Shown here piece by piece: positions 3,029 to 28,336 of a stretch of 33,111 nucleotides of DNA. The stretch's first letter is position 1. Every line of letters begins with the position of its first letter. Source of the stretch: Bacillota bacterium (GTDB lineage: Bacteria; Bacillota_I; Bacilli_A; Erysipelotrichales; Erysipelotrichaceae); assembly GCA_030526175.1 (NCBI GenBank), contig JAUNDJ010000015.1, forward strand, positions 1 through 33,111. Direction: 5' to 3'. A model generated the notes under the pieces. That model searched no databases. It saw only the letters and a program-made list of their open reading frames with translations, and was not told where the DNA came from. The position numbers were made by a program, and so were the translations under genes.

Positions 3029-3054
3029 GAAAAAAGAGAAGAAGAATCTTCTCT
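3029..3054 (-). terminator. Terminator of the PTS-IIB-like gene
   Basis: Perfect 8-base stem AGAGAAGA/TCTTCTCT (3035-3042 with 3047-3054) followed in the minus direction by a T run; it touches the stop codon at 3053-3055. Confidence 0.8.
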
Positions 3055-3757
3055 ACGAACAAATATTTAATTTTTCTAATACAGATGTAAAATTAAATGT
3101 CGCAAAAGCAATGCGATCAATCAATTGAATTTTCTCTCCATATTTTTCTCTTAATTCATCATACATATAGAAAATTTGTGGTGTTAATAAGACTACATCG
3201 TATTCATCAATTAACTCTGGTAAGTACGATACATTATATCCTTCACAAATAATGTCATTATCTTCTATATCTTGATCCAATTTGTCTTGAAGCAAGCTGG
3301 CAAAATATCCCGATGTCAATCCAGCTGTACAACAAATTAAGATTCTCTTAATTTTGTTTGGTACTTCGATAAGCTCTTCATCTTCTGGATTTGTTCCATA
3401 TAAGAAACAGAAGAATGCTGAAATCTGTTCTAATACAAATTCAAAATCGACCATTTCAAAGTGTAAATAGAATTCAGGATCGATAGATTTTCTTTTTTCT
3501 TTTCCATCGAATCTAACTTCATATACAGACAATTCCATGATATCACCATAAAATTGATGTTGTTCTTTATTTTGCGTAGAACGATCCCAAAATTGAACGA
3601 CTCCGTAACGAGTGATTGCTTCTTGTTCATTACCACATTCATACTCAATAAACATTCGATTTCTTTTTGGTGAATCTTGTGTACATTCCATAGCGGATAG
3701 CCAAGCTTGTACCATTGGTTTTATATACGCTTTTGTAAATTTATTCTTCTCCCTCAT
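3053..3757 (-). CDS. Two-domain protein: unknown N-terminal domain plus PTS lactose/cellobiose IIB-like domain (copy A)
   Basis: 234 residues. Residues about 137-230 resemble the lactose/cellobiose PTS EIIB fold: a first strand KRILICC then a P-loop-like CTAGLTSGY whose Cys143 aligns with the phosphorylated Cys of EIIB (CSAGMSTS), then DEYDVVLLTPQIFYM like the DVVLLGPQV.YM strand, and a last segment IDRIAFATFN. Residues 1-130 match no family I recognise; they contain IKPMVQAWL, FYGDIMELSVYEV and FYLHFEMVDFEFVL, which recur almost unchanged in the paralogue at 27459-28203. No EIIA or EIIC gene is nearby, so a role as a phosphorylation-responsive regulator is more likely than sugar transport (inference). 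It starts behind GAGGAGG and overlaps the upstream HAD gene by 17 bases, so the two are co-translated. Confidence 0.7.
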   Translation of the reverse strand: MREKNKFTKAYIKPMVQAWLSAMECTQDSPKRNRMFIEYECGNEQEAITRYGVVQFWDRSTQNKEQHQFYGDIMELSVYEVRFDGKEKRKSIDPEFYLHFEMVDFEFVLEQISAFFCFLYGTNPEDEELIEVPNKIKRILICCTAGLTSGYFASLLQDKLDQDIEDNDIICEGYNVSYLPELIDEYDVVLLTPQIFYMYDELREKYGEKIQLIDRIAFATFNFTSVLEKLNICS

Positions 3758-4538
3758 TTTTTCCTCCTCTTTCTAGCACACAGGTATAGATAGCTTGAGC
3801 AAGACCATCTTGATCTACAGGGTCACTCACATAGTCAACTATAGATTTTATTTCTTCAGGAGCTTGTCCCATGGCTATTGAATACGTTGCCTTTTCTAAC
3901 ATATCATAATCGTTCATACTATCTCCAAAAGCGATATAGTTTTTCGCTCCCATATGTTCTAAAAAGACTTGAATACCTTTTGATTTTGAAATGGATGATA
4001 AGATCAAATCGCAATAGGAAACATAAGAAGGAATCGCTTTTACTTCTTTTATGTCATTATAAGGTGCATATGAATAGCCTGCTGGAGCGAAAATCATCAT
4101 AGCACGAACAATACGATTGTCATATTGTGCGCAATACGATACTTTTTCATGCAAAAAGGACAATGCATCTTGGGCATTATTATCCATCTCATCTAACATA
4201 TAAATCCCATCGTCACAAATAATACAGCTACTATGTCCCTCTTTTAAAACGATCTCGTGTACTTTTGTGACAAGTTCTGTAGAAAATGCATCATTAGCCA
4301 AATACTTCCCTTCTTTATCTACGACTTGTAATCCATTTCCACAAATATATCCATCCCAATCTATCGCTTTATAAGCGATATTCTCTTTAAAATTTGAAAA
4401 TATTCTTCCTGTGGCTACACAGCACAAATAACCTTTTTCCTGTAAAGTAGAAATCGCTTCTATAGAGCTTTTCGGCACTTCATTTTTCTTCGTATCCACA
4501 AGAGTGCCATCGACATCAAAAAAAAATACTGGTTTCAT
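3741..4538 (-). CDS. HAD-superfamily phosphatase, Cof-type (class IIB)
   Basis: 265 residues from the chosen ATG (4536-4538). Motif I is FFDVDGTLVD with nucleophile Asp8 and acid/base Asp10, motif II is CVATGR, motif III is Lys in SISKSKG, and motif IV is AFGDSMNDYDML, the GDxxND form typical of Cof-type sugar-phosphate phosphatases. The cap between motifs II and III is the IIB type. Substrate unknown; sugar phosphates or FMN-like compounds are usual in this family. The frame can be extended five codons to a TTG at 4551-4553, but that TTG has no ribosome site and the TATAAT -10 box overlaps those codons. The start is therefore placed at the ATG, which coincides with the predicted transcription start. 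The gene overlaps the PTS-IIB-like gene downstream by 17 bases. Confidence 0.85.
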   Translation of the reverse strand: MKPVFFFDVDGTLVDTKKNEVPKSSIEAISTLQEKGYLCCVATGRIFSNFKENIAYKAIDWDGYICGNGLQVVDKEGKYLANDAFSTELVTKVHEIVLKEGHSSCIICDDGIYMLDEMDNNAQDALSFLHEKVSYCAQYDNRIVRAMMIFAPAGYSYAPYNDIKEVKAIPSYVSYCDLILSSISKSKGIQVFLEHMGAKNYIAFGDSMNDYDMLEKATYSIAMGQAPEEIKSIVDYVSDPVDQDGLAQAIYTCVLERGGKNEGEE

Positions 4539-4544
4539 GGAATT

Positions 4545-4573
4545 ATTATACAAAAGAAAAAGGTGAGCATCAA
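4545..4573 (-). promoter_or_regulatory. Promoter giving a leaderless HAD mRNA
   Basis: Minus strand TTGATG (4568-4573), exactly 17 bases, consensus TATAAT (4545-4550). Counting seven bases from the end of the -10 box puts +1 on base 4538, the A of the HAD ATG. The -35 box is the loop of the fba terminator and the spacer is its 3' arm and T tract. Confidence 0.7.
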
Positions 4574-4582
4574 ACTCACCTT
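4552..4582 (-). terminator. Terminator of fba
   Basis: Perfect 8-base stem AAGGTGAG/CTCACCTT (4560-4567 with 4575-4582), seven-base loop, then TTTTCTTTT in the minus direction. Confidence 0.85.
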
Positions 4583-15933: not shown

Positions 15934-16410
15934 CTATTTAAAAATGCTATCTATATCTTCTTCTGGAATATTTGGCACGCGTTGAATTGATAATTTCACA
16001 CCTAATTCACGAAGTCTTTCAAATGCTTCGACATCTTTATCGTCTACCGCTACACTTGTTGCAACTTGTCTTTTTCCTTCTGCCATGTGCATATTTCCAA
16101 TGTTTACTTTATCAATTGGAACTCCACCTTCCACAAGTTTTACAACATCCGTTGGATTTTCACAAATAATGAAAATCAATTGTTTCGGACTCGCTTTATG
16201 AATCACATCAATCGTTTTTTGAATACTGAAATATCGAGTTTGTACAGAGTCTGGAGCCGCCATATTCATTAGTCCTTGTCTAAATGTATCTGCCGCAACG
16301 GCATCGTTTGCCACCAATAATAAATTCGCTCCAACATAACTATTCCAAAGCGTAGCCACTTGTCCATGAATCAAACGCTGATCAATTCTTGTAAGTAAAA
16401 TATTAGGCAT
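15934..16410 (-). CDS. PTS system mannose/fructose/sorbose-family EIIB component
   Basis: 158 residues, the size of a free-standing EIIB of the mannose superfamily. The N-terminal LLTRIDQRLIHGQV contains the phosphorylated His15, and LLVANDAVAAD, VGGVP-type VEGGVPIDKVNIGNMH and the C-terminal LSIQRVP are typical, with closest resemblance by eye to the N-acetylgalactosamine group (AgaV/AgaB). It takes phosphate from EIIA and passes it to sugar during EIIC/EIID transport. No EIIA, EIIC or EIID gene is in the window, so it is an orphan here; partners would have to be elsewhere, or it has a regulatory role. It has its own strong promoter and GAGGAG site. Confidence 0.9.
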   Translation of the reverse strand: MPNILLTRIDQRLIHGQVATLWNSYVGANLLLVANDAVAADTFRQGLMNMAAPDSVQTRYFSIQKTIDVIHKASPKQLIFIICENPTDVVKLVEGGVPIDKVNIGNMHMAEGKRQVATSVAVDDKDVEAFERLRELGVKLSIQRVPNIPEEDIDSIFK

Positions 16411-26696: not shown

Positions 26697-26727
26697 GAGA
26701 AGAAGCCATCACTTCTTCTCGTTTTTT
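26697..26727. terminator. Terminator after the NagB-like gene
   Basis: Perfect 9-base stem GAGAAGAAG/CTTCTTCTC (26697-26705 with 26712-26720), six-base loop, then GTTTTTT. It also lies just beyond the stop of the convergent phosphatase gene. Confidence 0.9.
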
Positions 26728-26729
26728 CA

Positions 26730-27455
26730 TTATTCTCGACCAGAATACACCGTTGTCTGATCGATTTTATACACATAGAATTCTTCCATTGTATTTAAAC
26801 AAAGGCAAGCTAGACTTCCACCATAAGCAATGCCACAATCTATGACAATGTGATTCTTATGATGGTATATTTTACCGGCACTATTGTCATCAATCAAAAA
26901 TGTGGGAGTATGCCCCGAAATAATCGTAGTATCCTCAAAATAGCTTTGTTCATCATAATGCATACGTTCGTATAAAAAATTCTCTTTTTGATACTCTTCT
27001 AATGGTTTATTTGGCTCAAAGTCACTAATACCTGCGTGTACTAAGAAAAACTTACGTCCATTTACGGTAATTTTCTTATAAAACTGGAATTTTTTCATAT
27101 ATTCTATAATCCAGCGACGATGCACAGGTTCTAGATTTCTAAATTTTTCTATCGTAGATTTTCCACCATCCGCATACCAGCAACGAAACTCAATCGAATT
27201 ATTATGATTCTTAGGATCGCTATCTAAATCCACACCTTCGGCTAGTGTACTTAAAGCAACATATTCATGATTTCCCATTAAAGGGATAACATTTCTTCTT
27301 CGCATCATATCCAAAAGTATATGAAAACCTTTAGGCCCACGGTCAATGACATCACCAAGAATGAATAATACATCACTGCTTGAAAAATTAATCTTTTTCA
27401 ACATAGCCTTGTACTCTTGATAACAACCATGGATAACACTCATCACATAAATCAT
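26730..27455 (-). CDS. Calcineurin-like (PPP-family) phosphatase with a substituted metal ligand
   Basis: 241 residues. Motifs of the PPP phosphoesterases are in order: GDVIDRGP (Asp35, Asp38), GNHE (62-64), FLVHAG and SGHTP. Motif I, normally D-x-H-G, reads MSVIHG: the metal-binding Asp is Val7, while His9 is kept. One base change (GTT for GAT) accounts for this. The protein may have low or no phosphatase activity, or be a sequencing error. The family includes bacterial Ser/Thr-Tyr phosphatases and Ap4A hydrolase-like enzymes. Its ATG is three bases after the restored stop of the frameshifted PTS-IIB-like gene, whose end carries the GAGGAA ribosome site, so the two were built as a coupled pair. 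Confidence 0.8.
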   Translation of the reverse strand: MIYVMSVIHGCYQEYKAMLKKINFSSSDVLFILGDVIDRGPKGFHILLDMMRRRNVIPLMGNHEYVALSTLAEGVDLDSDPKNHNNSIEFRCWYADGGKSTIEKFRNLEPVHRRWIIEYMKKFQFYKKITVNGRKFFLVHAGISDFEPNKPLEEYQKENFLYERMHYDEQSYFEDTTIISGHTPTFLIDDNSAGKIYHHKNHIVIDCGIAYGGSLACLCLNTMEEFYVYKIDQTTVYSGRE

Positions 27456-27458
27456 AGT

Positions 27459-28203
27459 TTATTCCTCTTTTAAAGAAGTATACAATCTGTCTAAAATCGA
27501 ATTAAAATTAAGTGTCGCAAAATCAACTCGATCGATCAATTGAATCTTATCCCCATATTTTTTTTAGTTCTTTTTCCATATAGTAAATCTGTGGTGCCAA
27601 AAGTACAATATCATATTCATCAATCATGGATGGCAAAAAAGATACATTGGCTCCACAAACTTGAATCTTATTATTAGGCATGTCTTCATCCATTTTACTT
27701 TGAAGCAAAGAAGCGTAATAACCAGATGTTAGCCCCGCTGTACAACATATCAAAATATTTTCTATTTTTTCAGGAAATACCTTAATTGTCACTTCCTCTT
27801 CCTCGGTTTGATAATAAAAGCGAAAAAAAGAAGACAATTGACTTAGTACAAACTCAAAATCGTGCATTTCAAAATGTAAATAAAAAAGAGGTTGCGCTCC
27901 TATCTTTTGTAAGTAACCGGTCAACGATGTTTTTTCCCCATATATATTAATATCCACTTCATAAATAGAAAGTTCCATGATATCCCCATAAAAACGCCCT
28001 TGTTGTTTCCTTTTAAATTCTCGATCATAAAATTGTATAATCCCAAATCGAGCTCTGCAATTTCCATTTTCGTCTTGATGTTCCTCATCCACAGACTTAA
28101 TAAACATACGGTTATGATCGGAAGAATCATGTGTACAATCCAACGATTGAAGCCAAGCTTGTATGATTGGTTTAATAAAGGCACTCGTTAAATTTTCTGA
28201 CAT
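27459..28203 (-). pseudogene. Paralogue of the PTS-IIB-like protein (copy B), frameshifted at an A8 tract
   Basis: From the ATG at 28203 (AGGTGA upstream) the frame follows copy A (3053-3757) throughout: IKPIIQAWL, CTHDS, NRMFI, FYGDIMELSIYEV, FYLHFEMHDFEFVL, then ILICCTAGLTSGYYASLLQ with the phosphoacceptor-like Cys154, and IVLLAPQIYYM. At an eight-A run (27558-27565) the frame breaks and ends at 27547 after 218 residues. Moving one base there restores KYGDKIQLIDRVDFATLNF to a TAA at 27459-27461, nearly identical to the copy A ending. So about 30 C-terminal residues are lost unless transcriptional slippage on the A run or a sequencing error explains it. The next gene is a PPP-type phosphatase. 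Confidence 0.8.
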
Positions 28204-28292: not shown

Positions 28293-28325
28293 AAAAAAAG
28301 ATGCACAATTCATATCAATTGTGCA
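28293..28325 (-). terminator. Terminator of the LtaS-like gene
   Basis: Perfect 9-base stem TGCACAATT/AATTGTGCA (28302-28310 with 28317-28325), then CTTTTTTT in the minus direction. Confidence 0.9.
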
Positions 28326-28336
28326 CCATACATTCT

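Follow-up and report, generated by a model that had tools for sequence, protein, structure and literature searches.

A candidate PTS signaling adaptor in Erysipelotrichaceae that joins an unnamed N-terminal domain to a lactose/cellobiose-type IIB domain

Copy A, a protein of 234 amino acids encoded in the window (the whole 33,111-nucleotide stretch of DNA analyzed here), combines an N-terminal domain of an unnamed family with a lactose/cellobiose-type phosphotransferase system (PTS) IIB domain that carries an invariant cysteine, Cys143. As sugar-regulator proteins are joined to its relatives or encoded next to them, copy A is probably a switch reporting sugar-phosphate flow, and probably neither part of a sugar pump nor a true partner of the phosphatase encoded next to it. 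The reading that we favor, at a probability of about one-half, places copy A, as a stand-alone member, in a family of PTS signaling adaptors that is lineage specific and here called N-IIB, and holds that it is phosphorylated on Cys143.

Copy A and its transcription unit

The features of copy A and its surroundings are as follows.
3053 to 3757, minus strand: copy A, stand-alone N-IIB with N-domain and lactose/cellobiose-type IIB domain (ORF of 234 aa; PF02302; TIGR00853; AlphaFold2; Foldseek)
3356 to 3757, minus strand: N-domain of copy A, residues 1 to 134 (alignments A1 and A2; secondary structure of the model)
3056 to 3352, minus strand: IIB domain of copy A, residues 136 to 234 (profile, sequence, and Foldseek matches)
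3329 to 3331, minus strand: codon of Cys143, where phosphorylation is predicted (sequence alignment to the active-site Cys in solved IIB structures)
3741 to 4538 (4553 from TTG), minus strand: Cof-type HAD-IIB phosphatase, 265 aa from ATG (PF08282, E 5.8e-46; TIGR00099)
4560 to 4582, minus strand: terminator-like hairpin separating fba from the HAD gene (hairpin scan)
3035 to 3054, minus strand: terminator-like hairpin directly 3' of copy A (hairpin scan)

A preliminary description of this DNA had presented copy A as a domain of about 130 residues without a known family joined to a lactose/cellobiose IIB domain retaining Cys143, and the ORF, the PF02302 match, and the alignment with CelA and ChbB all agree with it. 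PF02302 (PTS_IIB) matched residues 138 to 212 (E 6.1e-5; 24.0 bits against a Pfam gathering cutoff of 23.6), while TIGR00853 matched with an E value of 3.8e-11 at 43.1 bits, far below the NCBIfam cutoff of 110 bits for transporter IIBs. In the sequence alignment, Cys143 occupies the phospho-cysteine position of CelA/ChbB, at the end of strand 1. The best Foldseek match of the AlphaFold2 model (mean pLDDT, 86.8; pTM, 0.84) was phospho-IIBchb (1h9c; E 6e-6; target-length TM-score, 0.80). Foldseek matches covered the IIB part only; the N-domain, modeled with confidence as a helix, an antiparallel sheet of five or six strands, and a second helix, had no credible match. Searches of Pfam, NCBIfam, and PDB with residues 1 to 130 returned chance matches only. 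A Pfam search found no ROK domain (PF00480) in copy A, which stops after the IIB domain.

As previously described, copy A overlaps the gene of a HAD phosphatase. The overlap is 17 nt, and the ribosome-binding site of copy A sits inside the 3' end of the HAD gene, as judged from the junction sequence. The HAD translation is intact, with the motifs FFFDVDGTL, ATGR, SKGIQ, and GDSMND all found, and scored 150 bits with TIGR00099 (NCBIfam cutoff, 137). Because terminator-like hairpins lie on either side of the HAD gene and copy A, these probably form a single two-gene unit.

The N-domain defines an unnamed family

Profile and structure-sequence searches returned no Pfam or PDB family that describes the N-domain. 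Alignment A2, iterated from copy A, contains 21 sequences with the core pattern W...G.I.FY...I.EL.I......FYLHFEM. The profile search for homologues suggested in the preliminary description found the domain in 88 of the 316 genomes searched from the window's order. In a sample of 392 genomes of the phylum, all 19 genomes with an N-domain belonged to that same order, and when two peptide patterns taken from the closest members were run against approximately 85,000 species genomes, 11 loci were returned, mostly from Erysipelotrichaceae or Massilimicrobiota.

The N-domain is almost always followed by a IIB domain, and almost all members are either N-IIB proteins (about 190 to 250 aa) or N-IIB-ROK proteins (about 455 to 500 aa). 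An 88-aa ORF resembling an N-domain without IIB was observed directly after one N-IIB gene (L037:8532-8795). All 78 aligned family rows have Cys143 and Pro193, and 77 have Gln194, while position 142 is variable (Cys in 26). The active-site turn C-x-x-G/A-x-T/S-T/S is retained across these rows; in the N-domain, every row has Leu98 and His99, and 77 of 78 have Phe100. Low-molecular-weight protein tyrosine phosphatases have a Cys-loop architecture that resembles lactose-type IIB. Membership of N-IIB in that family was rejected, since the CX5R signature is ruled out by residue 149, which is Thr in 61, Ser in 16, and Ala in 1 of the 78 rows.

PTS genes are distant from N-IIB loci but present in the genomes

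Gene neighborhoods were compared at 79 nonredundant homologous loci, with five genes either way considered for EII genes. Within this distance, EIIA-Lac genes were found at none of the 79 loci, EIIC genes at 8, and canonical IIB genes at 4, so homologues do not lie mostly beside EIIC or EIIA. Likewise, no EIIA or EIIC gene was seen among the window ORFs, in agreement with the earlier report of none near copy A. The earlier statement that copy A is not a transporter subunit is supported by these counts and by the linkage of relatives to ROK proteins described below, which points to regulation. Other common neighbors, assigned by eye, were aldo-keto reductases, 6-phospho-beta-glucosidase-like GH1 proteins, RpiR-like regulators, and MATE transporters; stand-alone members have mixed neighbor genes. 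Elsewhere in the window, an orphan mannose/sorbose-type PTS IIB gene (15934 to 16410, minus strand; PF03830, E 3e-52) lies between dipeptidase-like and enolase genes, and the window showed no further EII gene.

The genome from which the window derives encodes enzyme I and contains 3 EIIA-Lac and 17 EIIC matches above the cutoff. With three EIIA-Lac genes and enzyme I in the genome, a candidate phosphate donor is therefore available in trans. At least one EIIA-Lac gene was present in all 36 N-IIB genomes tested, compared with 24 of 31 N-IIB-free genomes from the same family (one-sided P ~0.003, calculated by hand); genome size and shared descent are confounders of this difference. The earlier idea of a sensor read out by phosphorylation is made plausible by this distribution and by the invariance of Cys143.

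Relatives are linked to ROK proteins

The strongest evidence for a regulatory role is the ROK linkage of the relatives, not the two phosphatases of the window. Approximately 54 of the 79 loci encode an N-IIB-ROK fusion, whose ROK part matches NanK, Mlc, and MecR2 in fold. For most of the fused and paired relatives tested, PF00480 matched at E values between 4e-16 and 2e-8; the ROK part of one member (L035) fell under the cutoff (E 0.04). In the 52 aligned ROK parts, the AGE-motif Glu is retained throughout, the consensus lacks the ATP phosphate-binding DxGGT motif, and the catalytic Asp of N-D-x-N is Asp in 35 and Asn in 15. As DxGGT is not conserved and the catalytic Asp is replaced by Asn in 15 sequences, the fused ROK domain is probably degenerate, a pseudokinase rather than a kinase by its motifs.

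Seven genomes carry a gene for an HTH-ROK repressor right after N-IIB, overlapping it or within about 12 nt, and in one such couplet the ROK part matches the fused-ROK profile at an E value of 5e-74. A further candidate couplet (L100) was rejected as a probable broken fusion, since its sister L127 is fused. In a phylogenetic tree that omitted two long-branch members (L033 and L037), a fully supported branch separates 20 stand-alone N-IIBs from all 62 that are linked to ROK, whether by fusion, as split genes, or as pairs. Copy A and the two further copies of its genome, B and C, all fall within the stand-alone group. No ROK partner gene adjoins any of the three, and the couplet ROK protein had no match in the window's genome at an E value of ≤1e-8. 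No description of IIB-ROK fusions was found in the literature searched. Overall, the preliminary description was probably right that the protein is regulatory.

Several further arrangements were observed around HTH-ROK genes. One locus (L179:4703-7101) contains N-IIB, HTH-ROK, and HAD genes as a same-strand run. HTH-ROK genes akin to that of the couplets (L185-L189, L191, L193-L196, and L198) repeatedly adjoin a PHP-type phosphoesterase-like gene (YIDLHMHS..SDDGE); such pairings in the window's order occur without N-IIB. At L192 and L197, HTH-ROK is followed by a gene whose product starts with RILxxxLAxxVAxxRHGEMxFIADAGSG (RbsD/ribose-pyranase-like by eye) and by a maltose-acetyltransferase-like gene, and this same RbsD-like and maltose-acetyltransferase-like pair precedes N-IIB at L100.

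Phosphatase genes next to N-IIB

The proposal of a phosphatase-based module relied in part on a second paralogue in the window, the features of which are as follows.
27547 to 28203, minus strand: copy B, paralogue of 218 aa as assembled, with a frameshift near its 3' end (ORF; tblastn; profile)
27558 to 27565, minus strand: A8 run, the frame shift point of copy B (sequence; tblastn)
26730 to 27455, minus strand: PPP/ApaH-like gene (PF00149, E 5.7e-14; alignment with five homologues)
28300 to 28327, minus strand: terminator-like hairpin upstream of copy B (hairpin scan)
26697 to 26720, minus strand: terminator-like hairpin 3' of the PPP gene (hairpin scan)

Copies A and B are 54% identical. The last ~35 residues of copy B continue in another frame (27483 to 27587; tblastn), and the truncated protein scored 23.2 bits with PF02302, slightly under the cutoff of 23.6. 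The adjacency of copy B and a PPP-family gene was confirmed, with 3 nt between the end of the copy B region and the PPP gene and terminator-like hairpins enclosing both, but the two partners look damaged. The PPP gene encodes SVIHG, whereas all five homologues from four other genomes have SD(I/L)HG; with Val at codon 7 in place of the motif I Asp (D-x-H), the metal-ligand Asp is lost. The frameshift in copy B and the loss of this Asp could each reflect assembly error or gene decay; for the A8 run, a slippery, phase-variable site is a further possibility.

The third copy, copy C (G000:C83:6290-7012; PF02302, 35.4 bits), has a DnaJ/TPR gene on one side and, as judged by eye, a phosphoribosyltransferase gene on the other, and no phosphatase gene adjoins it. 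In a fuller tree, copies B and C have orthologues in a sister genome (G059), those of copy B being L027/L046, while copy A represents a third, separate paralogue. Neither HAD-IIB nor PPP genes adjoin the orthologues of B and C, and synteny corresponding to HAD-copy A or copy B-PPP was looked for in the sister genome and not detected. An exported-looking protein with GNHD and GHNH motifs is encoded 18 nt after the copy B orthologue (L027:8230-9372, minus strand). These motifs are like those of metallophosphoesterases, but neither Pfam nor PDB searches bore this out, so the candidate was left out of the phosphatase pairs.

Across the family, HAD-IIB genes occupied 8 of 155 immediate-neighbor slots, compared with ~1.6 expected from about 10 HAD-IIB genes per Mb (approximately 5-fold enrichment; P ~3e-4), and PPP genes occupied 2 of 155 compared with 0.13 expected (P ~0.008); these P values are guides only, because related loci are not fully independent. 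HAD-IIB adjacency concerns only about 10% of the loci and the pairings are not conserved, while the PPP pairing recurs once outside the window, in a gene divergent to an N-IIB-ROK gene (G115). Phosphatases thus adjoin N-IIB more often than by chance, but these statistics indicate that the link is real as part of a wider sugar-gene context and not as a defining partnership. Small sugar phosphates are the usual substrates of HAD-IIB proteins, and the HAD-IIB protein beside copy A is most likely a sugar-phosphate housekeeper rather than the enzyme that dephosphorylates copy A.

Alternative explanations

Copy A might instead be an ordinary soluble IIB for an EIIC encoded elsewhere, with the N-domain as a docking or stability element. 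The IIB domain keeps its active-site Cys and fold, 17 EIIC and 3 EIIA-Lac matches are available in the genome, and in one relative (L092) an EIIC gene immediately precedes N-IIB. We nevertheless consider this rather unlikely: EIIA and EIIC are found within five genes at 0 and 8 of the 79 loci, many relatives have a ROK domain or an HTH-ROK partner, the TIGR00853 score is 43 bits where NCBIfam transporter IIBs require 110, and the same genome has canonical IIB matches that lie near EIIA and EIIC genes. It is less probable still that the IIB domain is no longer phosphorylated and persists as a ligand- or protein-binding relic with a structural Cys. The absence of a linked EIIA and the drift of the turn residues from CxxGxSTS (T/S, S/G, G, L, T, T/S) would fit such a relic. 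Against it stand a strictly conserved Cys143 whose neighbor, position 142, varies, an invariant Pro193 with a nearly invariant Gln194, and EIIA-Lac in every N-IIB genome tested.

A module in which the adjoining phosphatase reads or resets IIB phosphorylation appears very unlikely. In the window, copies A and B each form a two-gene unit with a gene of a phosphatase family between terminator-like hairpins, and the HAD-IIB excess and the G115 PPP gene agree with such a module; however, about 90% of relatives lack an adjoining phosphatase, neither the third copy nor the orthologues in the sister genome are paired with HAD-IIB or PPP genes, the window PPP protein lacks a metal ligand beside a frameshifted copy B, and the HAD-IIB family usually acts on small sugar phosphates. 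Least likely, finally, is N-IIB-ROK as a PTS-driven sugar kinase, in which the phospho-Cys would donate to a sugar in the ROK cleft and stand-alone forms would use a separate acceptor. The ROK fold, the AGE Glu (52/52), the catalytic Asp in 35/52, and the missing ATP-binding DxGGT could accommodate it, but that Asp is Asn in 15/52, the HTH on the couplet forms fits a repressor, and copy A has no ROK domain at all.

Comparison with known systems and proposed mechanism

Lactose/cellobiose-type IIBs (PF02302; ChbB and CelA; 1h9c, 1iib, and 2l2q) share with N-IIB the fold, the Cys position, the turn Gly, and the PQ motif. N-IIB differs in its additional N-domain of about 90 to 135 aa, in lacking an EIIA/EIIC operon, and in scoring far under the transporter-IIB cutoff. 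A functional parallel may be drawn to Mlc: dephosphorylated EIICB-Glc binds and sequesters this repressor (PMC3901232). As in Mlc-EIIB(Glc) (PDB 3bp8), a IIB domain and a ROK repressor are linked in N-IIB relatives, here by gene linkage and fusion, though not in copy A. In contrast to EIIB(Glc), the IIB domain of N-IIB is lactose-type and soluble, is not part of a membrane EIICB, and is separate from any transporter; it follows the new N-domain, and in the relatives the ROK protein is either joined to it or encoded alongside.

MtlR-type regulators contain IIB-like domains with a conserved Cys (PMC8560693). PRD regulators (MtlR, LicR, AtxA, and Mga) resemble N-IIB in having a IIB-like domain whose conserved Cys serves regulation, not transport. 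However, N-IIB has no PRD and no HTH in the same chain, belongs to another IIB subfamily, and is linked to ROK instead of PRD. The C-terminal domain of the fused relatives matches the ROK family (PF00480; NanK, Mlc, and MecR2) by sequence and fold, but its ATP-binding motif is lost and its catalytic Asp is not conserved; copy A lacks this domain.

For the favored adaptor reading, we propose that a lactose/cellobiose-type EIIA~P encoded elsewhere would phosphorylate Cys143 when PTS sugar is scarce, and that sugar flow through the PTS would leave the IIB domain dephosphorylated. The phosphorylation state would then decide between binding and release of a partner by N-IIB, although the direction of this control is a guess. 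For copy A, the proposal draws on the domain architecture, the conserved Cys, and the setting of its family. In the ROK-linked clade, the partner would be the degenerate ROK domain in cis or the HTH-ROK repressor encoded next door, and such control would resemble the way in which the PtsG IIB domain governs Mlc. Put more broadly, and tentatively, N-IIB may be a dedicated class of signal carrier, a freed lactose-type IIB capped by a new N-domain that would pass the EIIA~P signal to pseudokinase ROK repressors in cis or in trans, with the clade of copies A to C possibly directed to another target.

If the adaptor reading is right, a transporter subunit has become a stand-alone signaling component in an order of Firmicutes with many gut species, and to call the family "PTS transporter subunit IIB" only on the strength of its IIB domain would mislead. 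IIB control of ROK repressors has so far been known mainly from Mlc and PtsG, and the series of N-IIB forms that stand alone, are paired, or are fused would make such control testable in soluble proteins, in cis and in trans.
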